This document shows positions 32,604 to 49,578 of a stretch of 64,000 nt of DNA, one piece after another. The position numbers and the translations under genes were made by a program. Position 1 is the first letter of the stretch. Every line of letters starts with the position of its first letter. This DNA is from Bacillota bacterium (GTDB lineage Bacteria; Bacillota; Desulfotomaculia; Desulfotomaculales; Desulforudaceae), in assembly GCA_040757205.1 (NCBI GenBank), contig JBFLXL010000003.1, positions 1 through 64,000 on the forward strand. The letters are read 5' to 3'. The notes under the pieces were generated by a model. The model saw only the letters and a list, made by a program, of their open reading frames with translations, did not search any database and was not told the DNA's origin.

Positions 32604-32608
32604 TCTGT

Positions 32609-32788: not shown

Positions 32789-33186
32789 ACGTCGTCGAGG
32801 TCGGTGTAGTAGCCGCTGAGATCCAGGATGGCGTCCACCAGCTGGCGGACCTCGCCCGCCAAGAGGATGCGCTTGACGGCCTCCTCGGCGCTGGACGCCT
32901 TGAATTTATCGAGGAGCTGTGGGTCGGCCCAGTTGGGTGCCACGGTGGCCGCGACGATGACGGCCGCGTTGAATTCCTCGTCGTTGATGCGCCTTATTTC
33001 CTCTCCGCGCTTCCGCCTGATGACGGTGCACTGCTCCTGAATGCGGTCGACTTGCTTGTCGGAGAGCGCCCTGATCTTAACCGGAATGCCCAGCCGTTTC
33101 AACAGCACCGTGCGCTCCGGAACGGCATCGGCCGCGCCCAGCAACTTCTTAATGATTTCTTCCTGCGTCATGTCTTCCAACCGCAT
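32779..33186 (-). CDS. Tail assembly chaperone, XkdN-like
   Basis: A 135-aa cytosolic chaperone that binds the tape measure. It has the XkdN-like TQEEIIKKLLGAADAVPERT, then KRLGIPVKIRALSDKQVDRI and NWADPQLLDKFKASSAEEAV. It lies between tail tube and tape measure, and its 3' end carries the slippery heptamer for a longer -1 product. Confidence 0.85.
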   Translation of the reverse strand: MRLEDMTQEEIIKKLLGAADAVPERTVLLKRLGIPVKIRALSDKQVDRIQEQCTVIRRKRGEEIRRINDEEFNAAVIVAATVAPNWADPQLLDKFKASSAEEAVKRILLAGEVRQLVDAILDLSGYYTDLDDVKN

Positions 33187-33202
33187 ACATCACAACCCCT
33201 TT

Positions 33203-33610
33203 CTACGGCGCCTCAATCGGGTCCAAGAGTTCATAGCCCTCGAACGTGAAGGGCGTAGATTCTTCAACCACCTCGCCGGCGGTCCAGTTGGCCAGGACGA
33301 TCTCGTCGGCCATGCAGTTCTTCAGTCTAATTCGTTCGTGCCCGAATGCTTCCGGATCTTCCAGCTTCGAGATGATTTCAAAGCGTCCAAAGCCGTGCGC
33401 GATCATCTCGGACGTCACCTTAAAACCACTCATCGTGCCGGTGCCCTTCAAGATGCCTTTCTTGTGCCGCACCCAGGCACTGCCGGGCAGCTTGAGTTCA
33501 GTCTTTTCCATTGCCGCTTTAGCTTCTAGATGGTTGACATTGGTCAGCCACCTGCCGTCCTTGAACAGTTTCCCATAATGACCCTGGATCGCCCTTTCAG
33601 CCTCAAGCAT
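33203..33610 (-). CDS. Tail tube protein, XkdM type
   Basis: A 135-aa tube subunit: GHYGKLFKDGRWLTNVNHLE, KAAMEKTELKLPGSAWVRHK and KGTGTMSGFKVTSEMI match the XkdM/DUF2001 family. It directly follows the sheath gene, as in PBSX. Confidence 0.85.
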   Translation of the reverse strand: MLEAERAIQGHYGKLFKDGRWLTNVNHLEAKAAMEKTELKLPGSAWVRHKKGILKGTGTMSGFKVTSEMIAHGFGRFEIISKLEDPEAFGHERIRLKNCMADEIVLANWTAGEVVEESTPFTFEGYELLDPIEAP

Positions 33611-33710
33611 CTAAGGCCGCACCTCCTTCAGTTTGTGGACCGGCCCGGGCCCGGCGCCCCGGGCGGTCCTCGGTCAGCTGTCCTGGCGGTGCCAGTGCCG
33701 GTGGCGTCAG

Positions 33711-35141
33711 CTACTTGATGTAGCCCGTGCCGTAGATCTTCTCCATGGAGTCGATGATCGTGGCCTCGTAGCGCCAGTAGAATTCGTCCGACTCGGCGTT
33801 CGCCTGCAGATCGCGGTCGGTCTCGACCACGAAGTCCGGCGCCAGCAGGGCAGGGGAGAGGGTTTCGAAGTAATTTTTGATCGCGCTCAGCACCGCCGCC
33901 TGGCCGTCCTCGTTGTTGAGTACCTTGCCGATGTAGGCGTCGTGAGCCGCCTGGGCAGTGTCCATGTCGATGGCGTCCATGATCCGGATGGGCTTGACTT
34001 TCCGCCAGGCGCGGCCCTGGCCCTCCCGGAGGGATGTGAGGGTGTTGATACCCTGTTCGATGATCACTTTCTCGCCGTCGTGCACAAACACCAGGGTTCC
34101 GGATTGCAGTGCCCGGACGACCTGGTTGTGCGTGAGCCGGGGGGCGACATCAGTAAAAGGTGTGGCCGCGTAGGTGAGACTTTCGGCCAACCGCTGACCG
34201 GTACCCCGGCCCGCCACGTAACAAGCTGCTACTGCGCTCGGCCACCACGTGCCAGCCAGCTCCACACTGGTACCAACGTTAACCACACCCTCGTGATTGA
34301 AGCCGGTGGACCGGGCATTCGCGGTCGCCGGCGTCTGGTCGTCGACCGCGCTGCCGCCCAGGTAGGCAATAACCTTCTTGCCCTCGTCGCGCAGCCGTTC
34401 GACCCACGCCCGCACGGACGCCTGCAGGCTTGCGTCCGCAGCGCCGTCCAACGCGAACCCCTGGAACTGTCTGGCCTCGAAGGCGTCCATCGCACCAAGG
34501 TAATCCGCCGTTATCACGTTCGCCACGCCGGCGTTGCCACCGGTGAGGGGCTGAGTGGCCACGTTGGCGATTGTGCCGCTGCCGGCCGCCAGTTTCTGCG
34601 CTTCCAGCCAGACGTTATTCGCGCCGTCGCTGACAGCCGCCACCGCGTTGTCCACGGCGGCGCCTTTGGCGAACGTGTAGGTGTGAAGACGCCTGGCACC
34701 TTCGTAGAGGACGATGTCCTGTTTGGTCTCGTCCTGGATGTTGTCCTGTACCGCAACCTTAAAGTCCCGCGTGGTCTCGTACTTAGTGGTGAGCCTCAGT
34801 ACGTCCAGTGCCGCCGAGTCTTTCAGGGTTATGCCGGCTTTCGCTTCGCTGCCGTCCGCCAGCCGGTAGGCCAGGATCGTTTTCGGCCGTCCCAGGAGGC
34901 ACATGCGGACGCATGTGTAGGCCGTGAAGCCGCCCCCGGTGTCGGTGCCGAGAATGTCCACCAGGCCCTTTTCGCTGGTGATCTCCACCACTTGCTTCAC
35001 AGGTCCCCAGTTGGCTTTCACCGGAATGGCCACGATCCCCCGGGCGCCCGGCTGGATCGCCGCCAGGGCGGCCGCGATGAACCGCATGTAAAAGCCCGGC
35101 CTAATCGGCTTGCCCGCAGGGTCCCAAATACCGCTCGCCAT
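33711..35141 (-). CDS. Tail sheath protein, XkdK type
   Basis: A 476-aa contractile sheath subunit. Markers: KPIRPGFYMRFIAAALAAIQ at the N-terminus, IVAIPVKANWGPV, and the C-terminal RIMDAIDMDTAQAAHDAYIG and NEDGQAAVLSAIKNYFE, the sheath handshake region. It makes the particle a myovirus. There is a 100-bp gap before the tube gene. Confidence 0.92.
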   Translation of the reverse strand: MASGIWDPAGKPIRPGFYMRFIAAALAAIQPGARGIVAIPVKANWGPVKQVVEITSEKGLVDILGTDTGGGFTAYTCVRMCLLGRPKTILAYRLADGSEAKAGITLKDSAALDVLRLTTKYETTRDFKVAVQDNIQDETKQDIVLYEGARRLHTYTFAKGAAVDNAVAAVSDGANNVWLEAQKLAAGSGTIANVATQPLTGGNAGVANVITADYLGAMDAFEARQFQGFALDGAADASLQASVRAWVERLRDEGKKVIAYLGGSAVDDQTPATANARSTGFNHEGVVNVGTSVELAGTWWPSAVAACYVAGRGTGQRLAESLTYAATPFTDVAPRLTHNQVVRALQSGTLVFVHDGEKVIIEQGINTLTSLREGQGRAWRKVKPIRIMDAIDMDTAQAAHDAYIGKVLNNEDGQAAVLSAIKNYFETLSPALLAPDFVVETDRDLQANAESDEFYWRYEATIIDSMEKIYGTGYIK

Positions 35142-35344
35142 TATTTCGCCCTCCTTCTCAAGAAGCGGTTAACCGCTTTTTGCACCTCAGCCTTCGTCAG
35201 CTCCGGGGCCGGATCGCCGTGCAGCGCTCCAACGACCACTTCCGGTTTTACCCCGAAAAGTCCCTGTGCGTTTTTGATGAATTCTCCCCGGGGATACTTC
35301 GCAGGCTTGGTTTTGGCTTCGCCGTTGGTTGCCCCTTCAGTCAA
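35141..35344 (-). CDS. Small phage protein before the sheath, unknown
   Basis: A 67-aa protein with KYPRGEFIKNAQGLFGVKPE, a pattern I have seen in small genes just upstream of XkdK-type sheath genes. Its stop overlaps the sheath start. Function unknown. Confidence 0.6.
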   Translation of the reverse strand: MTEGATNGEAKTKPAKYPRGEFIKNAQGLFGVKPEVVVGALHGDPAPELTKAEVQKAVNRFLRRRAK

Positions 35345-35367
35345 CTTGCTTCCCCCCTGTCTTTGTC

Positions 35368-36207
35368 TTACTTGATTTCTCCGGTGCCGGCAACCTTCTG
35401 GATCAGGCTCACTTCCGGCTGCGGCCTGGCGACCATCTTCGTCAGCACCAAAGACACCTGGCCTTTGCGGAAGGCATCGGCCTGCAGATCCGCCCTGGGC
35501 GTCACTGCCGTCATATAGTCCTTGGCCTCGGCGTCAATCGGTATCTTGACCGCCCCCGTTAAATCCTGACTGATCCGCAACACCGCCTGCAGTTGACCGT
35601 TCGGCGTGAGACCCACCAAATGGATGGCCACGTGCTTCCGCAGCTCGTAGGCGGCGCGGCTTTTATCGGTGGCCTGGATATCCGTCACCCGGATTAGCAC
35701 CGCTGGTCTGACGTAACCCAGGGGCCAACCGTTCAGGTAGACATTCCATCCCGGCATAAAGCCTTGGATCCACCGAGCCAGCGCCTGCAGCCAGGGATCA
35801 TCCTGCACAGTCTCCGGCACATCCACGGGCTGCAGGGCCATGGCCGCGAAGCGGAGGGGCCTGGTCAGCGCGTCCCAATCGTCGTCGACGAAGTCGGGGG
35901 ACGTGGGGCCCAAGTAGTTGCACGTAAAGACCTCTTCGGTTTCCGGGTCGCCGATGAGCTGCTTGTCCAGTGCCGCCACTACGGAATTGACCAGGACATC
36001 CAGATCCGTAAAGCTGGTCCGCAAAACATAGGGGTATATCTCAAACACCCGGCGCCAGCCGGCCCAGGCCGACTCCTCGGCGTCCACGCCCTGGCGGATC
36101 ACCAGATACGGCTTTTCAGTATCCTTGTCGGCGGCGTGGGGTTCAAGCGCCCGACCGCCCAGGGCCGGAATTTCGCTGATCAGCTTTTCGCGCAGCGCAT
36201 TCCTCAA
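35368..36207 (-). CDS. Tail completion/terminator protein with two domains
   Basis: A 279-aa protein. The N-terminal 125 residues look like a tail-terminator (DUF3168-like) domain (MRNALREKLISEIPALGGRA, KPYLVIRQGVD). The C-terminal half looks like a second terminator domain (RWIQGFMPGWNVYLNGWPLG, YVRPAVLIRVTDIQ). Two usually separate proteins appear fused. Assignments are by position and pattern. Confidence 0.6.
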   Translation of the reverse strand: MRNALREKLISEIPALGGRALEPHAADKDTEKPYLVIRQGVDAEESAWAGWRRVFEIYPYVLRTSFTDLDVLVNSVVAALDKQLIGDPETEEVFTCNYLGPTSPDFVDDDWDALTRPLRFAAMALQPVDVPETVQDDPWLQALARWIQGFMPGWNVYLNGWPLGYVRPAVLIRVTDIQATDKSRAAYELRKHVAIHLVGLTPNGQLQAVLRISQDLTGAVKIPIDAEAKDYMTAVTPRADLQADAFRKGQVSLVLTKMVARPQPEVSLIQKVAGTGEIK

Positions 36208-36228
36208 GGCCGACCCCTCCCGGTACAG

Positions 36229-36558
36229 TTAACTCCATAGATCATTGAGCGTTTTTTTAACCGCGACCAGGTGGACGTCCAGCGTGGGTAGAATAATCGC
36301 GTTCTTGCCGCCGTGAGCGATTTCCAACCAGATACCGTACTCTACGCCGTGGCCAAGGGAGAGGACGACTTTGTTGTCGTCCGGCTGCTCAACACCGGCG
36401 TGCAGAGCCTGCCGGGCGTGACCGGTACGGTCCCGCCATTTGGCGCGTTGCTTGGCGTGGGACTCCATCGCACCAGCCCAGGTTTGCATCAGCATCACCG
36501 TGGCCGCTTTCTGCCGCTCAATGTGCTTCAGCGCTCCGTCTCCGAAGACCATCGGCAT
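36229..36558 (-). CDS. HK97 gp10-like head-tail protein (XkdI type)
   Basis: A 109-aa protein with WAGAMESHAKQRAKWRDRTGHARQALH and VEYGIWLEIAHGGKNAIILPT, typical of gp10/XkdI neck proteins. Its ATG (36558) overlaps the end of the broken metallopeptidase-like gene. Confidence 0.78.
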   Translation of the reverse strand: MPMVFGDGALKHIERQKAATVMLMQTWAGAMESHAKQRAKWRDRTGHARQALHAGVEQPDDNKVVLSLGHGVEYGIWLEIAHGGKNAIILPTLDVHLVAVKKTLNDLWS

Positions 36559-36765
36559 CACCCGTCCCGCAGCAGATTGTTCTCCTTGAGGACCATGTAG
36601 AGCCCGACTGACAGCCGTTCAACTTGCTCTTCGTTGAGACCGACACCCATGAAAACGTCCGCCACGTGGACCATTTCGTGGAAGAAGACCTCCATTGTTA
36701 ACAAGAGCCGGACGCTCTACCCGGTAGGGGAACGGCCCCACCTTGAGGGTCTCCGGAATCTTCAT
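36558..36765 (-). pseudogene. Broken HExxH metallopeptidase-like gene
   Basis: The frame from ATG 36765 starts MKIPETLKVGPFPYRVE, like the protein at 57345 (MKIPQHVRIGGHSFQVS). After about 23 codons the similarity shifts to another frame, which from 36695 reads MEVFFHEMVHVADVFMGVGL and ends at 36558. The HEMVH matches HEILH of the intact copy. About 25 codons are missing at the junction. So this looks like a deletion plus frameshift in a second copy of the gene. Confidence 0.65.
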
Positions 36766-37151
36766 CAACTCACCCTTTCCAGGTCGGCCTGGTAGCCGAC
36801 CACAACGCCGTCCACGACCTGCGGGTAGACGGCCCGGACGAGGAACGTGCCTAGCCCCGGGGCCTCGAATTTGTCCGTGACGTTGGGGCCAGCCTTGAGA
36901 TCGGCCGTGTGGTCCACTAATAGGCCGTAAACCGTATCCGTTTCTTTCTTTCCGGCCACGCTGGAGACATCTTGCCCGCCGGCAGGACTGCCCTGCATGA
37001 ACACGCGCACCGTCAGTGGGCCGATAGTGGAGACCCACTCCACGAACCCGCCGCCGGACCGGACCTTTTCGGTCCGTTTTATGACGATCACAGTCGGGTT
37101 TTGCGCGATGGACCACCTGATGTGCTTCTTCCGAGCCGCTACCGGATTCAT
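36765..37151 (-). CDS. Head-tail connector protein, unknown type
   Basis: A 128-aa protein, beta-rich (WSIAQNPTVIVIKRTEKVRS, GPLTVRVFMQG, LGTFLVRAVYPQVVDG), in the position of a neck/adaptor protein between capsid and tail genes (XkdH-like). Stop overlaps the start of the broken gene. Confidence 0.6.
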   Translation of the reverse strand: MNPVAARKKHIRWSIAQNPTVIVIKRTEKVRSGGGFVEWVSTIGPLTVRVFMQGSPAGGQDVSSVAGKKETDTVYGLLVDHTADLKAGPNVTDKFEAPGLGTFLVRAVYPQVVDGVVVGYQADLERVS

Positions 37152-37486
37152 CGCAGCACCTCCGGCGGGCGCACCCGGATGATCGCCGCGCCCGGCGCGG
37201 CCGCCGTCCGGGCCATTGCGGCGTAGGTGTCCGACATTTTCAGGGCGTGATCGACCTGATCTTTAAGCTTGGTCACGTCGTAAGACTCGTTGCCGACCTT
37301 GTAGCTCTCGATCTGCCCCTGGTAGAGGCCGGCCTTGATGGTCCAGGCCAGCGACGCCGCCAGGTAGAGGTCCTGCTTGTCATCCAGCAAGGACTCCAGT
37401 TCGGCGTCGGTGAAGTGGGTGTCCGCCTCGGTACCGCCGGGCGGGATGGCCTCGTTGATCAGCTTCCGTAGCGGAATTACGTCCAT
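37148..37486 (-). CDS. Head-tail adaptor protein, gp6-like
   Basis: A 112-aa helical protein: IPLRKLINEAIPPGGTEADT, FTDAELESLLDDKQDLYLAA and the KLKDQVDHALKMSDTYAAMA helix, the pattern of HK97 gp6-like/XkdG-adjacent connectors. Overlaps the next gene by 4 nt. Confidence 0.65.
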   Translation of the reverse strand: MDVIPLRKLINEAIPPGGTEADTHFTDAELESLLDDKQDLYLAASLAWTIKAGLYQGQIESYKVGNESYDVTKLKDQVDHALKMSDTYAAMARTAAAPGAAIIRVRPPEVLR

Positions 37487-37649
37487 CTATATCAGCCCCC
37501 TCATCAGGCCCCTTCCCCGGCGCCGGTCCCATGGCAGCGCTGGCGCGCGACGCTTGGAGAGGGTAGTTGCGACCGTCCCCTTTCCGGCACCGGGGGAGAG
37601 GAGGGAGTGGGAGGAAGACCCCACCCCCTATGCGTTGTGAGAAAAATGG

Positions 37650-38684
37650 TTACTGCAGGGACAGTTCCTGCACGTTTTCGCCGACCGCGGCAAACACTCC
37701 CCGATAGGCGTAGCCCACGATCTGGGCTTCCACCAACCGGGCCAAGTCGCCCCGGGCGGCCTCAAGCCGGAGATCCTGCTTGAGCAACGCCTTGAAGCCT
37801 CTCTCGGGCCTGACCAGATACGCCTTGTTTTCCGGCACCCCCGGATAGTTGTGCGTCTTTTTGCCGACGGTTACTTCCCAGCCGTCGTAGTAGACCACGG
37901 CGCTGATGCCGCTGATGCCCGGATACTTCGTGCCCGCGATCTGGTGTCCGCCCTCCAGGGCCATCTGGATGTCGGCCTCGTTGGCCGAGTTGGCCAGGAG
38001 CACCGTGCCCTTGCGCTTCTTCTTGGCCGCATCTTTCTTCGCCGCCTGGATGGTCTTCCAAACGCCGACCCAGGCAGGATCTTCGGCCGCGCCGGCGTAG
38101 GCCGTCTTGTTCGCGGCGGGATAGGTGAAGGCGAAGATGGGGTAGAGGTGGATGTGGTTCACCAGCGCGTTGTATGCCTCACCGATCGCTTTATTGAGCA
38201 TCTCGACCGAGAATGACTGATTGAAGTCCTTCATGAACTTCGTGTACTCGAAGCCGGCGGAGTAAGGCAGAATCCTGGCGGACGGCCCTTCTTCGGCGTA
38301 CAGCTTGCCGAATTTGACTTCTTCGCCCTCCATGTGTTCGGTGAAGACACACGCCCCGCCGAGCGCCCACTTGGCGTCCACGACGGGCGGAAGGTTCTTG
38401 TCCTCGATTATGTCGTAGATCGGGCGATATAGGACCGGCACCTTTTCGCGTCCCAGCTCCACATCCAGCACGGCTTTGCCCACCAGATCCTTGATGCTCT
38501 CAATGGAGCCCAGGGTCAACAACTCGCCAATCGGCTTTGTCAGCTGCAATGTCTCCATCTCGCCGTTGACGATGCGTTTGGTGACCTGGTATTCCTTGCC
38601 GTCCACAAGGAAGGACACCGGCACCTCGATGGTGCCCGCCCTGCGTTTTTCACGCAGTGTCTCGATACTGATTACTTGAACCAT
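37650..38684 (-). CDS. Major capsid protein
   Basis: A 344-aa protein in the place of the major capsid, downstream of protease/scaffold and decoration genes. Pattern fits an HK97-fold capsid of the Mu-like/minor type: SIETLREKRRAGTIEVPVSF, FGKLYAEEGPSARILPYSAG, and the large A-domain region GTVLLANSANEADIQMALEG. The 163-bp gap after it has no gene. Confidence 0.78.
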   Translation of the reverse strand: MVQVISIETLREKRRAGTIEVPVSFLVDGKEYQVTKRIVNGEMETLQLTKPIGELLTLGSIESIKDLVGKAVLDVELGREKVPVLYRPIYDIIEDKNLPPVVDAKWALGGACVFTEHMEGEEVKFGKLYAEEGPSARILPYSAGFEYTKFMKDFNQSFSVEMLNKAIGEAYNALVNHIHLYPIFAFTYPAANKTAYAGAAEDPAWVGVWKTIQAAKKDAAKKKRKGTVLLANSANEADIQMALEGGHQIAGTKYPGISGISAVVYYDGWEVTVGKKTHNYPGVPENKAYLVRPERGFKALLKQDLRLEAARGDLARLVEAQIVGYAYRGVFAAVGENVQELSLQ

Positions 38685-38700
38685 CGACTACTCAGCCTCC

Positions 38701-39216
38701 TTACGATGCAATGATGCCGGCTGTCCGGAGCTTGGCCAGCAGCGCATTGAAATCACCAACAATGGCCGCCACATCCCCCGCCGTGCTGTTGGCCTGCGCC
38801 GCAGCCTGCCGGAGCGCACCGGGCTGATCCGCAAGCTTGAACCGGATTACATTGTTGGCGTCTTTGGCCAACGTCACCCGGCCCGCGTAACGATTGCCGG
38901 GCGCCGCCTGGGTAAAGCGGTTGTTGGCGGCGTCCCAGTAGATGTCCGCGCCGCCCGCCATGGCATCGGTGGTCAGGATCTGGTCCGTCTCGTACTCCGC
39001 CTGTTCGATGTTCAGCACCAGCTCGGCCGTTTCTCCCGCGCCGGTGGTAACGCTCCGCATGGCCGCGCCCAAAAACCCGCCGATCAGGTAGAACTTACCC
39101 GCAGAAATAGTGGTGTTTTGCGGCACGGTCACTTGCACCGCTCTGCCGTTCGATACCTTGGGGTCGGTGCTCTGGTGCACTGTGGTCGGTACCGGTTGAC
39201 CCTGGTACATCTGCAT
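38701..39216 (-). CDS. Capsid decoration protein-like
   Basis: A 171-aa protein with a DUF2190-like beta domain (VTVPQNTTISAGKFYLIGGF, ADIYWDAANNRFTQAAPGNR, YAGRVTLAKDANNVIRFKL), typical of small decoration proteins encoded before the capsid gene. The C-terminus adds an Ala-rich helix. Confidence 0.68.
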   Translation of the reverse strand: MQMYQGQPVPTTVHQSTDPKVSNGRAVQVTVPQNTTISAGKFYLIGGFLGAAMRSVTTGAGETAELVLNIEQAEYETDQILTTDAMAGGADIYWDAANNRFTQAAPGNRYAGRVTLAKDANNVIRFKLADQPGALRQAAAQANSTAGDVAAIVGDFNALLAKLRTAGIIAS

Positions 39217-39229
39217 TCACGTCCTTTCG

Positions 39230-39757
39230 TTAAATGGCGGTCCGCTTTACGCGCACGTTGGCGGGACCGCCTTTGTCGCCGACGGCGCGCACGGCGCCGG
39301 CGACCATTGCCGGCGTGTCAGTGTGCAGCCGACTCAGGGCCTCCTTTACCGACGCTTCGGCCAGCAGTGCGTCGATCTCGCCGACGATCTGCTCCTTGGT
39401 CTTGCCCGCCGGCTGCAACATCTTCCGAATCAACGCCTGAGCCATCTCGCCGGCGACTTTTTCTTTGAGCACGCCGTCGACCAGGGCCTGCTGGCTACGC
39501 TCGCGGTCTTTGTCCATAGCCGCCTTGGCATCCCTGGCCGCCTGTACGATGTCCATTTCGCCGGTCACGCCCAGGGCTTCGGCCACGGCCTGCAGCGCTG
39601 CTTTCTCCGCGCCGGCCTTGCGCTCCACCCACTTGCCGTCAATCGCCCCGGCCACCTGCTCCGGCGTCCAGCCCATCTCCCCGGCCACCTGGGCCAGGGT
39701 CACATCACCGCTCTGCAGCAAGCCCTTCAGTTGCTGCACCAACTCTTTCCAACCCAT
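39230..39757 (-). CDS. Nested scaffold protein (Mu gpZ-like)
   Basis: Inside the protease gene an ATG at 39757 (MGWKELVQQLKGLLQ) is preceded by AAGGAGG with 7-nt spacing, a near-ideal internal site. It would yield the 175-aa scaffold alone in the same frame. Mu makes scaffold Z from within gene I in the same way. Confidence 0.75.
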   Translation of the reverse strand: MGWKELVQQLKGLLQSGDVTLAQVAGEMGWTPEQVAGAIDGKWVERKAGAEKAALQAVAEALGVTGEMDIVQAARDAKAAMDKDRERSQQALVDGVLKEKVAGEMAQALIRKMLQPAGKTKEQIVGEIDALLAEASVKEALSRLHTDTPAMVAGAVRAVGDKGGPANVRVKRTAI

Positions 39758-40309
39758 CGCTTTGCCTCCTTCAATCTCACCAGTGGCCACTATTCTGGTT
39801 TGCATCCCCGCCCGGTCCAGAGGCGTCCAGTCAATTGAAAGCGCCTCATAGTCAATAACCTCGGTCTCTCCGCCCGCCGTCCGCAGCTTGGGATAGCCGA
39901 AGATGGACACCTGCTTAACCCGTCCGGTGCGTATCCAGCGTTTGAGATCCACCGCCGCCTGGTCAACCACGCCCCGAAAATACGCTTTGCCGTTCTGCAT
40001 CTTGGCTCCGACCCAATGGGTTACAACCGCCGGGAACTGGGTGGGCACATCGTCGGCCTTCTGGTGCCCCAAGAACCCGTTCAGCGTTTGCTCTTGGACA
40101 CGCCGGACGATGGCTTCCAGCGCCGGCATCTTGTAGTTCCAACCTCGCTTACTCTTGCCCGGGGCAATCTCGACCACGACCTCCAGGGGGTCCTGGTCGC
40201 CGGCTTTAAGCGCCGACAGATCCACGCCCGGCGCCGCCGGCACATCATCGGGCCGCATCTCCCCGGAGACGGCTGCCGGCAGCCATGTCATTTCTCCCAC
40301 ATGCAACAA
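39230..40309 (-). CDS. Prohead protease with fused scaffold (Mu gpI-like)
   Basis: A 359-aa protein. The N-terminal 175 residues look like a phage maturation protease (EAIVRRVQEQTLNGFLGHQK, KQVSIFGYPKLR, YEALSIDWTPLDRAGMQTRI; His and Ser are candidates for the catalytic pair). The C-terminal 180 residues are helical, charged scaffold. A nested start for the scaffold alone is listed separately. Confidence 0.75.
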   Translation of the reverse strand: MLHVGEMTWLPAAVSGEMRPDDVPAAPGVDLSALKAGDQDPLEVVVEIAPGKSKRGWNYKMPALEAIVRRVQEQTLNGFLGHQKADDVPTQFPAVVTHWVGAKMQNGKAYFRGVVDQAAVDLKRWIRTGRVKQVSIFGYPKLRTAGGETEVIDYEALSIDWTPLDRAGMQTRIVATGEIEGGKAMGWKELVQQLKGLLQSGDVTLAQVAGEMGWTPEQVAGAIDGKWVERKAGAEKAALQAVAEALGVTGEMDIVQAARDAKAAMDKDRERSQQALVDGVLKEKVAGEMAQALIRKMLQPAGKTKEQIVGEIDALLAEASVKEALSRLHTDTPAMVAGAVRAVGDKGGPANVRVKRTAI

Positions 40310-40345
40310 ATCACACCTCCTTTCGGGGCATACTGAACACCGCAG

Positions 40346-40416
40346 GCGTTAACGGGGTTAACCCCCGGCGTTAACATAGCGTTAATACCGCGTTACATGG
40401 GCGTTATTTTGCGTTA
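40346..40416 (+). promoter_or_regulatory. Phased GCGTTA array at prophage midpoint
   Basis: Six GCGTTA motifs in one orientation start at 40346, 40368, 40379, 40390, 40401 and 40411, so spacings are 22, 11, 11, 11 and 10 bp, all near whole helical turns. A palindrome GGGGTTAACCCC (40354-40365) fills part of the 22-bp gap. It occupies the 195-bp gap between the protease and DUF4926 genes. The prophage midpoint is about 40520. Related TAACGC/GCGTTA motifs cluster near the phage left end. Protein bound is unknown. Confidence 0.8.
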
Positions 40417-40504
40417 CTAGATTTGGGTACGTGGGTGGGTAGGGGTGTGCCCGGCTACGAGGCTTGCAGGGCCGTATAGGCCCTGCTGCCAAATCATGGG
40501 TGCT

Positions 40505-40723
40505 TTATGGCTTGCCGACGGAGCCTATGCTGTGAACCAGTTCCAAATCGTCGGGGCCGAACTCCTCCAGGGCCGGGGTTTCTCCCTCGTCGCCGAATTC
40601 CACTGTGTAGGCTTCATCCGGATGCCGAAACGCCATTACCACCGTTCCGGTGTCACCGTTTTTCAGTCCGTGCTCCGGAAAATCCCTGGTCAATCGTACC
40701 ACATCAAGTTCCTCGAACTTCAT
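40505..40723 (-). CDS. DUF4926 protein, putative immunity partner
   Basis: A 72-aa protein with the DUF4926 pattern (LDVVRLTRDFPEHGLKNGDT, GTVVMAF, AYTVEFGDEGET). DUF4926 genes are often next to DUF6883 genes, and here the ATG overlaps the stop of a DUF6883-ending gene (ATGA). A role as antitoxin/immunity protein is inferred from this pairing. A longer frame upstream (to 40798) overlaps coding sequence and is not used. Confidence 0.75.
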   Translation of the reverse strand: MKFEELDVVRLTRDFPEHGLKNGDTGTVVMAFRHPDEAYTVEFGDEGETPALEEFGPDDLELVHSIGSVGKP

Positions 40724-42144
40724 TTCTTCACCTTCTTCTTCTTGGCAACCAGAGTAGTCACCAGCTCGGGGAAGTCCTTGCCCGTCTTGATGCGCCACGC
40801 CGTCACCACATCTGCCGTGTTGCCGTTCGGCCCCGTCAGTGCCATGATCACTTGATACCTGTGCCCATATTGATCACGGCCCTTATCGACCGCATTGTAA
40901 TAGGGCAGGTTATCCAAGATATCTCTCTCCAGGCGCCCGGCGGTGCTCGGGTCATATCCAAGGACTCTCTCGAAAACTATCGCCTTGTTCTTCCCCCTGG
41001 GGTGCTCCTTGTCCAGGGAATACTTCAACAGCTTCGGCGGGGCAATATAGGCCCGTTCCAGCCCCGGCAGCGGCTTTTCGGCCCATGCCTTTTCTCTGAT
41101 TATACCACCTGGCGGCCCGGCGCTAAACCCTTTGTAGACATTATTGTACCAATTTTCCAGGTCGGGCTGGGCAGCCGGGTCCTGTGTCCATTCCTTGATC
41201 TTATCGGCCATTTCCTCCGGCTGGGTGTGTACCGGTACCAGAAAGCTCAGTGTGTTCGGATGCGCAGGATAGACCGGCTCGTTACCCGCGGCGTACACTC
41301 CCGGCCCCAGACCGTCCTCGTCGGCGGTCGCCAGTACGTCACAGATGTCGTAGATCCGATGCTGTGCCGAAAGACAATACTTGATCCCGACGTAGGAGGG
41401 AGTGAGCCGCGCACTGTTGATACTGGCCTGGCCGAAGGCGGCCGTGGCCTCGGTGCGCGCCAGGCGCAGCGCCTCGTAGCTGATGTCCTTCGGCACGCGC
41501 CCCTTGAGGCGCTCCCACGCCTCGGGGTAGTCCCGCAGGAGCGTCCCAGTGCCCTGCTTTACGTATCGTTCCAACATCCGGGCGGTCTTCACCGCGTCCT
41601 GGCCAGCGGCCGCCGATTCCTGCACGAGCCTGGTCAGTTGCTTACCGTAGTTCTCCCCGGTGCGCCAGATCCGGTCCGACACCTTTAGCCCCTTGTGGGT
41701 CCGCTGCCACGCGGCTTCCACCGCCCGGGCGTTGACCCGGGCGAACATGCTGTTAATGCCGGATGCGGTCACCAGGGTGCTGCCCGCATCTTGGAAGAGG
41801 GTGGTCGTCACTCCTTTGGAGTAGGTCGTCCCGGCTTCGACCGCGCCGTGGATCTGCCGGCGCAACGCCGCAGCCAAATCGTCCGTCAGCTGGCCGGCCT
41901 CCAGCCGCAGCATCTTCTCCAGCTCTTCGAGCTGTTGTTTCCTGATGTAGCTTGAAGGGGCTTTAAGGACCAGTTTCCGTATCTCGGCGGCGATGTGGTC
42001 GGCGGACCGCGCATAGACCTGTCTGATCTCCAGATCCTGTTTCAGGCGCAGCTCGATAAACTCCCGCCGGGCCTGCAGGAAACGCCGCTTATACTCCTCG
42101 TTTCGGGTGGCGGCCGCGATCTGGTCGATCTCCCGCGGGCTCAT
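40720..42144 (-). CDS. MuF-type minor head protein fused to C-terminal DUF6883 domain
   Basis: A 474-aa protein. Residues 1-290 are a phage Mu gpF/SPP1 gp7-like head morphogenesis protein: QAREEF-type coiled helices, ALRLARTEATAAFGQASINS, DICDVLATADEDGLGPGVYA and YPAHPNTLSF. From about residue 365 a DUF6883 domain follows: LKYSLDKEHPRGKNKAIVF, RVLGYDPSTAGRLERDIL, DQYGHRYQVIMALTGPNG. MuF proteins carrying toxin domains with a downstream immunity gene are a known phage-borne polymorphic toxin class. The toxin activity here is inferred. Confidence 0.8.
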   Translation of the reverse strand: MSPREIDQIAAATRNEEYKRRFLQARREFIELRLKQDLEIRQVYARSADHIAAEIRKLVLKAPSSYIRKQQLEELEKMLRLEAGQLTDDLAAALRRQIHGAVEAGTTYSKGVTTTLFQDAGSTLVTASGINSMFARVNARAVEAAWQRTHKGLKVSDRIWRTGENYGKQLTRLVQESAAAGQDAVKTARMLERYVKQGTGTLLRDYPEAWERLKGRVPKDISYEALRLARTEATAAFGQASINSARLTPSYVGIKYCLSAQHRIYDICDVLATADEDGLGPGVYAAGNEPVYPAHPNTLSFLVPVHTQPEEMADKIKEWTQDPAAQPDLENWYNNVYKGFSAGPPGGIIREKAWAEKPLPGLERAYIAPPKLLKYSLDKEHPRGKNKAIVFERVLGYDPSTAGRLERDILDNLPYYNAVDKGRDQYGHRYQVIMALTGPNGNTADVVTAWRIKTGKDFPELVTTLVAKKKKVKK

Positions 42145-43640
42145 TGCTTACCGCCAAACTTGTCGATCTTCGTTTTTTCATCCAGTAGACCTTCCGCGTC
42201 CTCCAACCGGGCTCTTTCGATTCGGTTCCTGATGATCCGTTCTCTTTCTCCCGGTTCATCATCCGCTTCGGACTCATAACTGCGCATGGTGTCCACGTAC
42301 CGACTGAGGAATTCGGCGGCCGCGTCATCGGAGAGGAACCCGCCCTGCACAGCGCGGTCCAGAGCGATGGCGACCTTCTCCAGGATCTCGGCCACCTCTT
42401 TTTCGTCGCGCGGGTCCACTTCGTCCCAGTCCAGTTCCGTGGCATAGGTTGAGTACGCTTTGCCCTCGGACTTGGCCGTCATCGCCAATACGATCCGGCC
42501 CACGAGTTGCCAAGAGTCCGCAAACTGGTCGCGCTTGCGGGCCACCTTGCGCACCACGACCGGCATTTGCTCTTTGACCGATGACATAGAGCTGGGAGTA
42601 TGCACACCAAACACGAATTCCGGTGTTTCGCTGGTATCCACGATGCAGTAGAAAACCAGCTTCAGCAGCGCGATGGTATCCCCGGTGGCGCTTTTTACCT
42701 CAATGAATTCCGCATCCTCTTCGGTCGAAAAGACCAGCAGTTCGTGGCCCTGCAGATTGATGCTGCCGCCCCGTTTTGCGAACTCCGCCGGGTCGGTGAT
42801 GTTGAAATTGTGGCGCAGAAACGCGGCCACGTCTTTCAACTTCAGCTTCAACCGGGGAGTGGAATGCATCTTGGAACCTTGCGCGGCGTGCAGCATCAGA
42901 TCGTGATACAGCTTTAGGAAAGGTTCGACGGGCTCCAGCTCCGAACGGCCGAACAGCGCTGTTTCGTCGCCCTCGTTCCGGAAATGGACGATGGGAATGA
43001 AGCCCCAAATATTTTCTTCCGTGCCCGGTCGCACTCCGGGGACTTGGTCGCCGTCGACCACAATAGTCCTGGTATCACGGGTAATCCGCTGAGTGACGGT
43101 CGCCTGTCTCTTACTGCCGTGCTCGTCCGTCCAGGTATGCTTGGACTTCAGTATATACTCATATGCATCACCGGTGACCGGGTTACGTTTGATCTCGTCC
43201 ACTTGCTCAGGCGGGATGATGTGGTACACCAACCGGGTCTTCAGCTCCGGGTAGAGCTCCTTGTCGGTTTCTTCCCGCGTGATCCAGACAAAGCAGTCTC
43301 CATCACGCAGCGCGTTGCGGTGTGTCCGCTGCACGCGGGACCGGTTGGCGCCGAAGAATCCATCCAGCACCGCCTGGGCGTCGTCATCATCCGAAAGAAA
43401 GCGGGGCACACCCATGAAAGCCACCGGCGTGTTGATGATGCCGCGCGCGAACCCGGCCCCCAGTTTGTACCCATCCCGGCTGTTTTCGTAAAGCTCCCGG
43501 GCCAGCTCGTAGTCCACCCGGCTGGAGTCCAGCTGGTAGACCGCATAGCCGCCGGTGGTCACCCCGAAAGGTGAGTACCCGCGCAGCCGGCTCATTTCGC
43601 CGATAGCCCGTTTGACCCGTCTTATCCAGCTTCCGCGCAC
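42141..43640 (-). CDS. Phage portal protein
   Basis: A 499-aa portal: YQLDSSRVDYELARELYENS at the N-terminus, DGFFGANRSRVQRTHRNALR, GDCFVWITREET, LKLVFYCIVDTSETPEFVFG and SMSSVKEQMPVVVRKVARKR. The C-terminal 60 residues are charged helix. It overlaps the MuF gene by 4 nt. Confidence 0.88.
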   Translation of the reverse strand: MRGSWIRRVKRAIGEMSRLRGYSPFGVTTGGYAVYQLDSSRVDYELARELYENSRDGYKLGAGFARGIINTPVAFMGVPRFLSDDDDAQAVLDGFFGANRSRVQRTHRNALRDGDCFVWITREETDKELYPELKTRLVYHIIPPEQVDEIKRNPVTGDAYEYILKSKHTWTDEHGSKRQATVTQRITRDTRTIVVDGDQVPGVRPGTEENIWGFIPIVHFRNEGDETALFGRSELEPVEPFLKLYHDLMLHAAQGSKMHSTPRLKLKLKDVAAFLRHNFNITDPAEFAKRGGSINLQGHELLVFSTEEDAEFIEVKSATGDTIALLKLVFYCIVDTSETPEFVFGVHTPSSMSSVKEQMPVVVRKVARKRDQFADSWQLVGRIVLAMTAKSEGKAYSTYATELDWDEVDPRDEKEVAEILEKVAIALDRAVQGGFLSDDAAAEFLSRYVDTMRSYESEADDEPGERERIIRNRIERARLEDAEGLLDEKTKIDKFGGKQ

Positions 43641-43655
43641 ATTATCACCGCCACT

Positions 43656-45221
43656 TTACCCGTAAATCCTGGCCCGGCGGAAGATCCCCATCAGCCCCGA
43701 ATCCAGGGTGGATGCGTTCTTGCACAGGGTGCGGCAGCCCTCCAGGGCGTCCGGTCCGTCGTCGTAATCGGCCATGGGGAAATACTTGAGCTGTTCCAGC
43801 AGCCGGCGGTGCCTGGGGTTGAACTTGATGTACTTGTTCTTGATATCCGGCTGCAGGGTCTGGATGCGCAGGATCTTATCCTTTGACTGATAGACTTCTT
43901 CGATGGGCAGGTACAGCTTCTCACGGGCGCTGGCCTTGGCCAGCTCTTCCTTCAAGAACCACTGAAACTGGTTCGACTCGGAGCCGAACTTAGCATAACC
44001 CCGGCCGTAATCCCTGCGCAGCCAGCGTTCTTTCTCCAGGATGTCGGCAATGATCCGGTCCGGGTGCCGCCGCTCAATATCGGCGTCCAAGACGTACATG
44101 TAGCCAGTCTGCGTGTCCAAGGCGACGGTAATGACCGCGGAAAAGTCCGATTTTTTGCTCTTGCCCAGAGACGGGTCCACAAAACCGAAAAAGAGAAAGC
44201 CTCTGCCGAACTGCATCCCCACGGGGTTGAAGTAGTCAAACCATCCATCGTCAAAGAGGCAGTCTTCGGGGTTGATCGGCTCGTTCTGCAGCTCCGAGTT
44301 GAAGCTGGCCTCGCCCTCGGAAACCCGGGTCACCATCAGGTCGTAATAACTGTTTTTCTCCTCCCAGAGAACCCGGGCCCCCTCCAGCATGGCGTCACGA
44401 TGCTCTTCAAAAAACCGTCGCGCATTCTCCTCGCGGTCTTCGCCAGACAGGTCGGTGTAGATCTCATCCCACTCATCCCACAGCCCCTGGTTCTTGGCGA
44501 AGCTCAGTACCGCCTGGTATTTCTTGGTCCGGTAGGCCGGGTTCTTGAGCACTTTGGCCAGCAGGCTGTCGTAGTGCAGGAGGGTGCCGATGTAGATGAT
44601 GTCCGTGTAGTCGTCGCCCGCTTTGGACACGGCCTTGTAGAACCAGTTCTCCAGCTTCTTGCGCTGCTCCGGCGTCCGGACGTTCTCGTCGTTTTCAATG
44701 TCGTCCAGGATGATCAAGTCCGGCCGCCAGTTCTTGTGCTTCCGGCCGCGGACCTTCTTGCCGGCGCCCAGGGCCTCGATCTTGACGCCGGTGCTGGTCA
44801 ACAGGACGCTGTTCTTCCAGACCTTGCCTTCCAGCTTCCCGAAGTCCTGGATGATCAGCTCGTTTTCTTCCATCTCCTCGCGGATGCTGGTTAGAAAACC
44901 CTCGGCCTGCTCGCTGCTGTCCGAGATAATGAGGATATAGTGCTTGTAGCCATAGAGGATGGCGTGCAACGCATTTTTGAACGTGAGCGTGGTGCTCTTG
45001 GCGTGCCCGCGCGGGGCGCCGACGGCGCGCCGGGTACCCGTTTCCGTGTCGATGACGCCTTCGAGCCAGATCTGATCCAGCTCCCGGTGAAATTCCGGCG
45101 ACGGGCGAGAGAAGTAGTGGGGGAAATAAGCTTTGCCGAAGTAGTCCAGGTCCCGCTGCCCGCGGCGTTTTCTGCTCGAGTCGCCGCTGCGGCCTTGGAC
45201 CAAGCCCTCAAGGATGCTCAT
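43656..45221 (-). CDS. Terminase large subunit
   Basis: A 521-aa packaging motor. ATPase half: APRGHAKSTTL (Walker A-like, residues about 68-78), LIILDDIEND (Walker B), GTLLHYDSLL (coupling). Nuclease half: FGFVDPSLGKSKKSDFSAVI and DALEGCRTLCKNA. It fits the Mu gp28-like terminase group. The upstream gene is a small membrane protein, and portal follows. Confidence 0.92.
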   Translation of the reverse strand: MSILEGLVQGRSGDSSRKRRGQRDLDYFGKAYFPHYFSRPSPEFHRELDQIWLEGVIDTETGTRRAVGAPRGHAKSTTLTFKNALHAILYGYKHYILIISDSSEQAEGFLTSIREEMEENELIIQDFGKLEGKVWKNSVLLTSTGVKIEALGAGKKVRGRKHKNWRPDLIILDDIENDENVRTPEQRKKLENWFYKAVSKAGDDYTDIIYIGTLLHYDSLLAKVLKNPAYRTKKYQAVLSFAKNQGLWDEWDEIYTDLSGEDREENARRFFEEHRDAMLEGARVLWEEKNSYYDLMVTRVSEGEASFNSELQNEPINPEDCLFDDGWFDYFNPVGMQFGRGFLFFGFVDPSLGKSKKSDFSAVITVALDTQTGYMYVLDADIERRHPDRIIADILEKERWLRRDYGRGYAKFGSESNQFQWFLKEELAKASAREKLYLPIEEVYQSKDKILRIQTLQPDIKNKYIKFNPRHRRLLEQLKYFPMADYDDGPDALEGCRTLCKNASTLDSGLMGIFRRARIYG

Positions 45222-45234
45222 GCCGCCACGCCCC

Positions 45235-45426
45235 TTATCTCCCTACCGCCTTGCCGTCCACATAACTCTCGCCGACTATGAAGGCGATGACCCCGCCGGT
45301 GATGGCGAAGTACGCCTCCCGGTCGACCGGGGCTCCCAGGATTTCGTTTAACACCACAAATCCGAAGTTCGCCAAGGCCACAAGGAACTTCCGGGACTTC
45401 AGCCGGTCAAAAAAGGGTCTTTGCAT
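45235..45426 (-). CDS. Small phage membrane protein, holin-like
   Basis: A 63-aa protein with two hydrophobic segments (FLVALANFGFVVLNEIL and AITGGVIAFIVGESYV) and basic ends. It lies between the endolysin and terminase genes. Size and position fit a small holin or antiholin; no family proof. Confidence 0.6.
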   Translation of the reverse strand: MQRPFFDRLKSRKFLVALANFGFVVLNEILGAPVDREAYFAITGGVIAFIVGESYVDGKAVGR

Positions 45427-45429
45427 GGC

Positions 45430-46089
45430 CTACACCCCCTTTGCGGGAACAATTACATCCACCGTCTGCGTGGTCGCGTCCCAGTCGATGGTTGCCTGCG
45501 GAATCATCTCAATTACGCTCCGCAGCTGCACCCACTGGCTATCCAGTTGCATCTGGGTCCGCCCGTCCACGATCTGCGCCGGGATCTTCGTCCGCCGACC
45601 ATTAAAGAGTACCGTGACGCCGACGCCGACGCCGGCACTGCCTGCCTCCAGCAACTTTTCCAGCTCTGCCCAGGGGAACATCGTCCCTGGGCAGGCTGTG
45701 GCACCCACATCTTTATGGCCGATCACCGGGATGTTGCCATATCGCCTCCGGATGTCCCCGATGAGCCAAGCCAGCGACTGCATCTGCTCCGGCGCCGGTC
45801 GCGCACTTGTAAAATCACCGGCCAGGGCGATACCGATTCCGTCAGCGTTTGCAACCGGCGCGTGGGCTCCCTGCATATGCTCGGGCCGGCCCCGCTCGAT
45901 AACGCCGTTCCGGCGCAAAAGATAGTGGTATCCCACACCGGCCCAATTATTGGGATGGCTTCTATGCCATTGGTGAACAGTCTCAATTGAAACGTCCCCC
46001 GATGCGGTGTGGTGTACCACGATGCGCCGAGTGCTTGCCCGCGGGGGCAGAGCGCCATTAAACCGGAGGCCCGTCTCTGTGATCTGCAC
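45430..46089 (-). CDS. N-acetylmuramoyl-L-alanine amidase endolysin with copper-amine-oxidase-like domain
   Basis: A 219-aa endolysin. Residues 20-145 are an amidase_2/PGRP domain with zinc ligands in IVVHHTASG, HWHR-like QWHRSHP, YHYLLRRNG and GHKDVGATACPG. The C-terminal 60 residues (VLFNGRRTKIPAQIVDGRTQ, MQLDSQWV, IDWDATTQTVDVIV) resemble the copper amine oxidase N-terminal-like domain common in clostridial envelope proteins. GTG 46089 has GAGGAGG upstream and overlaps the membrane protein gene. Confidence 0.88.
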   Translation of the reverse strand: MQITETGLRFNGALPPRASTRRIVVHHTASGDVSIETVHQWHRSHPNNWAGVGYHYLLRRNGVIERGRPEHMQGAHAPVANADGIGIALAGDFTSARPAPEQMQSLAWLIGDIRRRYGNIPVIGHKDVGATACPGTMFPWAELEKLLEAGSAGVGVGVTVLFNGRRTKIPAQIVDGRTQMQLDSQWVQLRSVIEMIPQATIDWDATTQTVDVIVPAKGV

Positions 46090-46336
46090 GATAATCCCTC
46101 CTCGATTGATACGCATCCGTGCCCATCCGGGCCACCTCATGCACGAAGTAGCCACCCAGAATAATCTGGATCATCCGCCCCAGTTGGTCCACCGCCCATT
46201 CTTCGCCGTATCCAAAATAACTGGCGATGATCATAGGCAGATAAACCAGCACAAAGGAGACCGCCAGACCGTCCTTAAAACTGAACTGCCTGGGGGCGCT
46301 GAAGCGATCTTCTATTTTTTTCAGGCTCTCACCCAT
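46058..46336 (-). CDS. Putative holin
   Basis: A 92-aa protein with two predicted TM helices (GLAVSFVLVYLPMIIASYF and IQIILGGYFVHEVARMG). AAGGTGTGAG precedes ATG 46336. First gene after the long RNA dyad and overlapping the endolysin gene, as expected for a lysis pair. Confidence 0.65.
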   Translation of the reverse strand: MGESLKKIEDRFSAPRQFSFKDGLAVSFVLVYLPMIIASYFGYGEEWAVDQLGRMIQIILGGYFVHEVARMGTDAYQSRRDYRADHRDGPPV

Positions 46337-46357
46337 AAGCTCACACCTTACCACACA

Positions 46358-46421
46358 AAAGGGGCTGATTTTGGCCGTGCTACGCCATTTGGCCCTCATC
46401 GCGGCCAAAGTCAGTCCCTTT
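46358..46421 (-). promoter_or_regulatory. Large RNA dyad between loaP-like gene and late operon
   Basis: On the - strand, AAAGGGACTGACTTTGGCC (from 46421) pairs with GGCCAAAATCAGCCCCTTT (to 46358) with two mismatches in 19. Inside the loop a second GGCCAAA (46394-46388) can pair instead with the first TTTGGCC (46409-46403), closing an 8-nt loop. So two exclusive folds exist. It ends 22 nt before the holin start. The position suits a LoaP recognition hairpin or attenuator for lysis and structural genes. Confidence 0.7.
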
Positions 46422-46463
46422 AACATCCTGGCTCGAACTGCACCGCCGAAACAGGCGCGGTCC

Positions 46464-46961
46464 TTACTCGGACTTTTGCAACACGTTTACGCTCAACTCA
46501 ATGATCTTGGGCTCGCCAAACAGTGGGATATTGACCTTCGCCCGGCCCTTGCGCCGATCCAACTTAACGATTTGCCCCTCTAAACCCCGCAACGGTCCCG
46601 ACACTATCCGGACCCCATCCCGCTCAAGCAAGGCAGTCGATACACCGATCAGTTCATCGTCCCGCACCAGGCTAAGTACCCGGTTCATCTCCGCCGGCCG
46701 TACCGGCTGCGGTCTGCCGGCGCCCAAGATCCGGATTACGCCGCCAATTCCAGTGAGTGTGTAGTAGTCATTCGGCTCCAATGCTGTGTTTACGAACACA
46801 TAGCCCGGAAACAAACACCTGGTCACCTTTTTTGTCACGCCGCGTCGCCGCTCCATCATCTGTCGGCGGGGGACCAGGGCGTGAATCCCCGCGTCCCGCA
46901 CGCGGCGGCTGACCTCAGCCTCTTGCGCCGTTTTGGTATGCAGTACATACCACTCAACCAT
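46464..46961 (-). CDS. NusG paralogue, LoaP-type antiterminator
   Basis: A 165-aa NusG-family protein. The NGN domain has VEWYVLHTKTAQEAEVSRRV, ALVPRRQMMERRRGVTKKVT, CLFPGYVFVNT and YYTLTGIGGVIRILG. The KOW domain has VRIVSGPLRGLEGQIVKLD, RRKGRAKVNIPLFGE and ELSVNVL. The VPRRK-type insert and the RKGRAKV KOW are typical of LoaP, the antiterminator for long operons in Firmicutes. Here it lies at the junction of middle and late genes of the phage, just before an RNA dyad. It may do the job of Mu protein C. Confidence 0.85.
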   Translation of the reverse strand: MVEWYVLHTKTAQEAEVSRRVRDAGIHALVPRRQMMERRRGVTKKVTRCLFPGYVFVNTALEPNDYYTLTGIGGVIRILGAGRPQPVRPAEMNRVLSLVRDDELIGVSTALLERDGVRIVSGPLRGLEGQIVKLDRRKGRAKVNIPLFGEPKIIELSVNVLQKSE

Positions 46962-47532
46962 CCTTGTCCTCTAAGCGGGAGACGATCTTGTCATCCAACA
47001 AGCAGCAGATCTTCTCATGCAGATCGGGGTTGCGCTTCAGCTCCTTGGCCAGCTCATCCTTGACCTCCTGGACGGCTTGTTTAATCAGCCGACCCTGCTC
47101 CGCCCGGAACTTCTCCTTGTGGACGATACTCCTCTGCAGGTAGACCAGGAGCCGGCCCACCTTGTCCAGAGGCATTCGATCCCACTCATCCTCGGCGGTG
47201 GCCAATCGCTCGGTCAGGGCATTGATCAAGATCGTCTCTGCGGCGTCCGAGGCCTCGATGTTCTGGTTCTCCTTAACAGTCTGGACCAGGAGCCGGGTCT
47301 TCTCATACGCTTCCTTCAGCCGCCGGGCGGCCGCGTTCTTGTTCAGCGCATACCGTCCGACGCTGGATTTTGATATCCGAAAGGCTCCATGCCCCCGTGA
47401 TGTAATTTCGGCCGCGATCTGCTCGTAGGTATAGTTCACGTTGGCCAGCATCTCATCCAGCCGCGCACGGACATCTTCCGGAAGTTCGTCCACCCGTGAC
47501 TTGATCCGGTGGCGTTCACGCTCCTTGCCCAT
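46954..47532 (-). CDS. Mu gp27-like protein (DUF3486), putative small terminase
   Basis: A 192-aa protein with KSRVDELPEDVRARLDEMLA, YTYEQIAAEITSRGHGAFRI and SKSSVGRYALN, the DUF3486 pattern. Such proteins precede gp28-type terminases and probably select DNA for packaging. A long helix follows. It overlaps the loaP-like gene by 8 nt. Confidence 0.82.
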   Translation of the reverse strand: MGKERERHRIKSRVDELPEDVRARLDEMLANVNYTYEQIAAEITSRGHGAFRISKSSVGRYALNKNAAARRLKEAYEKTRLLVQTVKENQNIEASDAAETILINALTERLATAEDEWDRMPLDKVGRLLVYLQRSIVHKEKFRAEQGRLIKQAVQEVKDELAKELKRNPDLHEKICCLLDDKIVSRLEDKDG

Positions 47533-47849
47533 TACACGTCAACCCCGGGATCTTCCCGGGAACCCTCCAGCAGGTCGATCCCCGTGGGCGTCAACCGCAC
47601 GGCAATGTCATCCTTGAGCACGTTATAGGACTTGATCTTGTCATCCGTGAACTCGATATAGCCCTTTTGCTCCAAGTAGTTGATGTAGTTGCCGATATCG
47701 TATGAGACAATCAGGCCGTCCCCGAAAAGGGAAGAGGCGATCTGGCGGCAAAAAAGCGTTAAGTTCTGCGACTTCAAGAGGCTCCTCAGGATATATCCCC
47801 TGATTGCCTTGTTTTTCCTTATTTCCATCGTCCGCTCCGGGCTCTCCAT
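47532..47849 (-). CDS. Mu gp26-like winged-helix protein
   Basis: A 105-aa protein with a winged-helix look (RGYILRSLLKSQNLTLFCRQ, YINYLEQKGYIEFTD, DDIAVRLTPTGIDLLEGS). It occupies the Mu gp26 place between the gp25- and gp27-like genes. Start MESPE at 47849 overlaps the gp25-like stop. Confidence 0.7.
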   Translation of the reverse strand: MESPERTMEIRKNKAIRGYILRSLLKSQNLTLFCRQIASSLFGDGLIVSYDIGNYINYLEQKGYIEFTDDKIKSYNVLKDDIAVRLTPTGIDLLEGSREDPGVDV

Positions 47850-48145
47850 TACGCACCCTTCCTTTCGATCCACGACTGAATCCTGTCTAGTTTCTTTTCC
47901 AGGATGCCGGCAAAGCGGATGAAGTCGTCCTTGGCGGTGTAAATAAACGGCAGATCGGCCTTCAGTTCATTCAGGCCCCTCTCCAGCCGCCGGGCCTCAT
48001 CCTGGCAGTCCCGGCTCACCTGGGCGATTGCTTCCTTGTTCTCCTTGATTTCCTCGTCGATCCGCTTTTTCAGATCTCGCAAGAAATAGGCTATCGTACT
48101 AATCGCCAGCAGTGTGGCCGTTTGCACCACCCAGGAGAGATCCAT
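47849..48145 (-). CDS. Mu gp25-like protein (DUF2730)
   Basis: A 98-aa protein: N-terminal TM helix (VVQTATLLAISTIAYFL), then a charged coiled coil (KKRIDEEIKENKEAIAQVSR) and a C-terminal FAGILEKKLDRIQSWIE. This is the DUF2730 layout of Mu-like phages. It is the first gene downstream of the Mor-controlled region. Confidence 0.72.
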   Translation of the reverse strand: MDLSWVVQTATLLAISTIAYFLRDLKKRIDEEIKENKEAIAQVSRDCQDEARRLERGLNELKADLPFIYTAKDDFIRFAGILEKKLDRIQSWIERKGA

Positions 48146-48339
48146 TGAGCTACCTCCCGAATAGATAGATGGTTTAGATGGTTTGCATCCCGGTCCCCAC
48201 CAGCCACAGGATGCTGCTCCGCCGCCCTTCCTTCCCGGCGCGCGGCAACCCGTCGGCCGGGGCGAAGCTCCTCACAAAAGCCCGTTTTGGCTAAGGGCTT
48301 CGACTAATGTTGCTTTCTGTTGCATCTTTACTTTGGTTA

Positions 48340-48422: not shown

Positions 48423-48426
48423 CGAG

Positions 48427-48732: not shown

Positions 48733-48749
48733 CGCCTCACGCTCCTCCT

Positions 48750-49572: not shown

Positions 49573-49578
49573 CTCGCA

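Follow-up and report, generated by a model that had tools for sequence, protein, structure and literature searches.

A helically phased TAACGC array at the centre of Bacillota transposable prophages, a probable counterpart of the gyrase site of phage Mu

In phage Mu, nu mutations leading to the central strong gyrase site (SGS) were mapped near genes G and I, and foreign sites mostly did not work in this phage (PMC10052514). The gap between G and I holds the annotated gyrase cut (17879-17880 in AF083977) together with the late promoter PI. In the right arm of the SGS, which is wrapped around the GyrA pinwheel, AT sits where the minor groove faces inward and GC points outward (PMC11626157). This arm is built of helically phased AT-rich units (TTTAAAACGCG / TTTAAACCGG / TTTAACGG); the Mu units at about +20, +40, and +51 from the cut fall within this arm. 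The E. coli gyrase motif obtained by Topo-Seq is degenerate, with 47-bp arms and a GC periodicity of 10.75 bp (PMC6379681), and a 10–11 bp periodicity was described for Bacillus anthracis gyrase (PMC12324340). For Pseudomonas phage Ab30, an insertion-free central segment is the candidate SGS (PMC5977238).

The DNA analyzed here (the window, a stretch of 64,000 nucleotides from a Bacillota bacterium) contains a Mu-like prophage with a phased array in a noncoding gap. Six exact GCGTTA copies were located on the plus strand at 40346, 40368, 40379, 40390, 40401, and 40411, in the same orientation and at the steps originally predicted (22, 11, 11, 11, and 10 bp), and a degenerate seventh unit (GGTTAACC at ~40357) sits within the 22-bp step, giving seven units 10–11 bp apart. 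Read on the minus strand, along which the phage late genes run, the motif is TAACGC with steps of 10, 11, 11, 11, 11, and 11 bp (mean 10.83 bp), and shows the helically phased AT/GC pattern of a wrapped arm. In the window, the best phased chain of any 6-mer had 6 members, and none of 60 dinucleotide shuffles exceeded 3; the array is real. It was also the sole strong one within the prophage when scored with a TAACGC weight matrix. A motif-free scan for GC periodicity placed the array first or third, varying with the window length of the scan, both in this prophage and in the 13.3-kb mini-element described below; the scan gave the Mu SGS no high rank and is thus not decisive. In several loci, an apparent G-rich/ACC box lies 9–18 bp ahead of the array.

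The prophage ends were determined from empty sites in two genomes of the same genus: similarity to the left flank ended at 21307, similarity to the right flank began at 59861, and the two flanks overlapped by 5 bp at the empty site in both genomes. The element is 38,553 bp long and has a 5-bp target-site duplication (TSD), TG...CA termini, and inverted end repeats, its L end being the right-hand end in the window (Table 1). The original prediction had put the array at the centre of a prophage spanning 21.31–59.73 kb. The central position stood (array centre 40,381, 203 bp from the midpoint at 40,584 and 50.5% from the L end), while the ends were corrected to 21308–59860. Copies of the hexamer said to recur near the L end were real, but they are spaced by ~21–23 bp and more, not by 10–11 bp. 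These TAACGC-type sites (59467–59644) lie 221, 242, 265, and 393 bp from the L end, with one further inverted copy; the three at 21–23 bp steps are candidate transposase-binding sites. Near the R end, GCGTTA occurs as a single copy at 21417, as had been noted. Directly upstream of the array, a small DUF4926 gene (40505–40744, minus strand) follows the MuF-like gene carrying a C-terminal DUF6883, and the pair looks like a MuF-type polymorphic toxin and its immunity gene.

Table 1. Features of the prophage and its central gap, in window coordinates
Feature	Coordinates	Strand	Basis or remark
Mu-like prophage (L end 59860, R end 21308, midpoint 40584)	21308..59860	-	Empty sites, TSD, termini
Target-site duplication CCAGG, R-end side	21303..21307	.	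Empty sites, termini
Target-site duplication CCAGG, L-end side	59861..59865	.	Empty sites, termini
Array of six exact TAACGC units and one degenerate (~40357), 10–11 bp steps; proposed gyrase-wrapped arm	40346..40416	-	Conserved in L002/L003 (close relatives); arrays of this class also seen in further MuA-bearing elements
Noncoding gap (195 bp) containing the array, flanked by the DUF4926/MuF-like genes and the protease-position gene; corresponds to the SGS-bearing G/I gap of Mu	40310..40504	-	
phrog_3219 gene, protease/scaffold position, downstream of the array	39230..40309	-	
MuF-like head morphogenesis gene, C-terminal DUF6883, upstream of the array	40720..42144	-	
MuA-like transposase	54829..57006	-	
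MuB-like ATPase	53758..54798	-	
Predicted gyrase cleavage segment, array side facing away from the protease gene	40417..40450	.	By analogy with Mu (first AACG unit ~20 bp past the cut)

Both the window array and the Mu SGS occupy a central noncoding gap preceding the protease gene of a transposable phage, and both have an arm of AT-rich TTAA-type units that alternate with GC about once per helical turn. They differ in that the units in the window are exact TAACGC copies, seven against three in Mu, and that gyrase cutting is here only predicted. The TAACGC weight matrix had no match at the Mu SGS, so homology to Mu at the motif level is not claimed. According to the original prediction, the array might serve instead of, or in addition to, a gyrase site; the first alternative found no support, since the equivalent gap in Mu holds a gyrase site whose right arm is itself phased. 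For the same reason, an array that is the gyrase-wrapped arm is the simpler reading. The Topo-Seq motif of E. coli gyrase is alike in its ~47-bp arms with AT/GC phasing (10.75 bp, compared with 10.83 bp in the window array), but the published motif is degenerate and the phage array is a sharp repeat. The candidate gyrase site proposed for Ab30 is likewise intergenic and central in a transposable phage, but it contains a palindrome and lacks a phased array of TTAA-type units. The iterons of the R1 parC plasmid centromere are 11-bp direct repeats. They resemble the array in being direct repeats at one helical turn, whereas no par genes were seen beside the window array, and palindromic and inverted array variants exist.

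The central gaps (~50% of the genome) of complete Proteobacterial transposable phages hold TTTAAA-type units at 10–11 bp (e.g., ATTTAAAGCGAATTAAAGCGATTTAAACTGCATTTAAAGC in AFS-2018a and TTTAAAACAATTTAAAACGGTTTTAAAACGTTTTAAAATGGG in SuMu). A score for TTAA-type steps with GC half a turn later, applied to the middle stretch only, placed the central gap at rank one or two in 12 of 14 phages, with Mu among those ranked first; Mushu and Ab30 failed, and a Vibrio phage and BalMu-1 did not beat all shuffles. As this score was designed after the sequences had been seen, the comparison of spacings is the fair control: across 11 gaps not belonging to the main array set, the best chain averaged 5.5 at 10/11 bp versus ~3.3–3.8 at 6–9 and 12–18 bp. 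This preference of the central gaps for 10/11 bp alone extended to Mu. The Firmicute arrays likewise peaked at 10/11 bp.

Additional arrays were retrieved by searching viral contigs for a pattern of three TAACGC copies and by applying weight matrices from which elements had been held out. Related arrays were present in most of the MuA-encoding Bacillota elements examined, in direct (TAACGC), palindromic (CGTTATAACG), mixed, or looser (AAACG) form, pointing with or against transcription from element to element. An unbiased phased-5-mer scan of MuA-bearing loci recovered the same motif in three further elements, and in BalMu-1, whose protease shows 49% identity, the homologous gap carries phased AAACG. 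The array lies in the head/protease gap in most elements, in the terL/portal gap in L103 and L134, in the portal/head gap in L464 and L469, between the protease and capsid genes in G039, G068, and G454c, and past a capsid-like gene in G492 and G458. The 21-bp palindromic pattern had seven matches across IMG/VR, all seven adjoining Mu-type head genes; MuA was present in three of the six palindrome records checked (G510, G513, and G519), and none was found in the other three, which are smaller records. A backwards-read pattern gave no matches in the 13 records tested. No array was detected in MuA-bearing Mushu, RTG5, G297, and G099, or by inspection in Ab30, and it was weak in G419 and G077.

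The predicted tie between a helically phased central array and transposable phages agreed with these relatives and with the phages used as controls. Six phages with a protease of the same family in which no MuA was found (phiCD27, BSP7, Youna2, and prophages in G082, G090, and G056) had no TAACG chain, and excess phasing was absent from five of the six and marginal in G056.

Several searches were set aside. A search of viral contigs for the 15-mer TAACGCRAAATAACG gave 94 matches, mostly without a Mu-type neighbour and at about chance level, and the three-copy pattern in bacterial genome contigs matched mostly unrelated repeats. The protease search of genome contigs returned no relatives, and no TAACG units were found in the region upstream of the pSC101 replication gene. 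Elsewhere in phages, phased TAACGC arrays were located in coding linkers of replication-initiator-like proteins. In many unrelated phages (L117, L121, L152, L185, L206, L078, L305, and others), GTAACGC arrays with alternating 10/11 bp steps lie inside the NAxVTxx-repeat linker of such proteins. They are real, but lie in coding DNA and were left out of account. It may be that a phased array at the DNA level, perhaps a phage origin, gave rise to the NAxVTxx protein repeat as a by-product.

The position of the array was compared along 11 elements with assigned ends (13.3–38.6 kb). The ends were based on empty sites for the window, on two near-identical copies for the first copy in G454, and, for the mini-element (G244:C1:112710-126019; L050, L064), on a 5-bp duplication (AAAAG), inverted repeats, and a ~96% alike copy in another genome ending at the same R end. 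The remaining ends were obtained by searching for 5-bp duplications with inverted TG...CA ends. In this search, the true ends came out best in the window and the mini-element, but those of the G454 first copy were missed. For G386, G305, G049, and G458, a lower-ranked candidate was chosen on the resemblance of its ends to proven ones, and these four are less certain. In all 11 elements, the array was found at 42–57% from the L end. The fractions were 0.505 in the window (38,553 bp), 0.496 in the mini-element (13,310 bp), 0.454 in the G454 first copy (33,611 bp), 0.538 in the G454 third locus (31,634 bp), 0.466 in G305 (33,254 bp), 0.462 in G244:C23 (32,739 bp), 0.537 in G039 (31,574 bp), 0.425 in G386 (35,679 bp), 0.569 in G068 (37,188 bp), 0.443 in G049 (38,262 bp), and 0.514 in G458 (35,716 bp). 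The corresponding values are 0.453 for the array of BalMu-1 and 0.487 for the cut of Mu; the window array lies centrally in a transposable prophage, as a Mu-type SGS would. Off-centre arrays were observed in G514 (far off-centre, contig incomplete) and G030 (AAACG, 0.336), both near the start of the late genes.

The mini-element, which was also found in G269:C18 (L051) and is thus known from two genomes, has the gene order MuA, MuB, GemA, array, tape measure, protease and carries Xre too. It counts most among the elements compared, because it has one-third of the length of the window prophage and its array is out of the protease gap, but still only 48 bp from the element's own midpoint. The original prediction had named an absent or non-central array in relatives of different length as counting against it, and in this 13.3-kb relative the central place was kept. 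The mini-element seems to have no terminase, portal, or capsid genes, and may be a deletion derivative or a satellite.

In our preferred reading, to which we assign a probability of about 0.68, the array would be the DNA-wrapping arm of a central gyrase site, the counterpart of the Mu SGS in a Bacillota transposable phage. Most likely, it represents a sharply repeated, new sequence variant of the SGS; the likeness rests on place and phasing, and from it we infer gyrase binding, cleavage adjoining the array, and synapsis of the ends. Each unit would present a flexible TTAA/TAAC step on one helix face and GC-rich DNA half a turn on, and five to seven units (50–77 bp) would together bend smoothly over roughly the length needed to wrap one GyrA C-terminal pinwheel. 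Once loaded at the array, gyrase would draw the prophage into a single supercoiled plectoneme with the array at the tip, and the two equidistant ends would slide together, upon which MuA would build the transpososome. In support, the array is near-central across lengths, is not tied to one gene or orientation, and is absent from non-transposing relatives, and TTAA-type units are helically phased at the Mu SGS and in other central gaps as well. Against the gyrase reading, exact TAACGC is more conserved than a degenerate gyrase motif would require, the TAACGC matrix is blind to the Mu SGS, there are MuA-bearing elements without the array, G514 and G030 are off-centre, and arrays occur in initiator genes of other phages.

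A less likely explanation is a central site for a sequence-specific host or phage DNA-binding protein (e.g., GemA or a nucleoid protein), bound on one helix face and looping or bridging the prophage, perhaps indirectly with gyrase. In its favour, the pentamer TAACG is almost exactly kept and the first two units (TAACGCRAAATAACG) are nearly identical in divergent elements; the motif is also found in the replication-initiator genes of unrelated phages, and GemA is encoded by many of the phages with arrays. However, palindromic, direct, inverted, and AAACG/TTTAAA variants take the same place, a pattern more in keeping with shape readout than with a single recognition helix. The transposase is an unlikely reader of the motif, because MuA proteins only 25–35% identical accompany it.

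It was considered improbable that the array serves the protease gene and the late genes downstream of it as a promoter or operator, similar to PI in the equivalent gap of Mu. Although the array is just upstream of a late gene, and the off-centre arrays of G514 and G030 are also near the late-gene start, no sigma-70-like promoter was found in the 40310–40504 gap by a scan that does not cover activator-dependent promoter types, and there is only one strong array in the prophage versus several late promoters in Mu. The mini-element array is central though another gene lies downstream. Simple promoter or operator function for the flanking genes had been named in the original prediction as the competing explanation; among relatives, the orientation flips, the downstream gene varies, and the array is not bound to either.

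The arrays inside initiator-like genes of other phages might suggest a replication origin of the iteron type to which a phage initiator binds. This is very improbable: no initiator gene adjoins the window array, which sits among head genes (flanks DUF4926, MuF-like, and protease-position), and replication of Mu-type phages proceeds by transposition from the ends. It is hardly credible that the array arose by chance or is a relic with a centrality that merely mirrors conserved gene order, for although many transposable phages have the head/protease gap near the middle in any case, the shuffle tests, the recurrence in divergent elements and in several different gaps, and the central array of the 13.3-kb element with rearranged gene order all speak against it.

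Beyond the gyrase-wrapped arm itself, it may tentatively be proposed, with the odds somewhat against it, that Bacillota and some distant transposable phages share a modular 'centre-marker' code of one TAACG per helical turn, selected to stay near the midpoint despite threefold shrinkage or changed flanking genes. Its reader would be either gyrase with a much sharper preference than known or a dedicated unknown protein. The array provides a searchable sequence signature that stays near the centre in elements of 13 to 39 kb and predicts the position of the gyrase cut; as a gyrase-wrapped arm, it would provide sharp natural gyrase-wrapping sequences of Gram-positive hosts for structural work.
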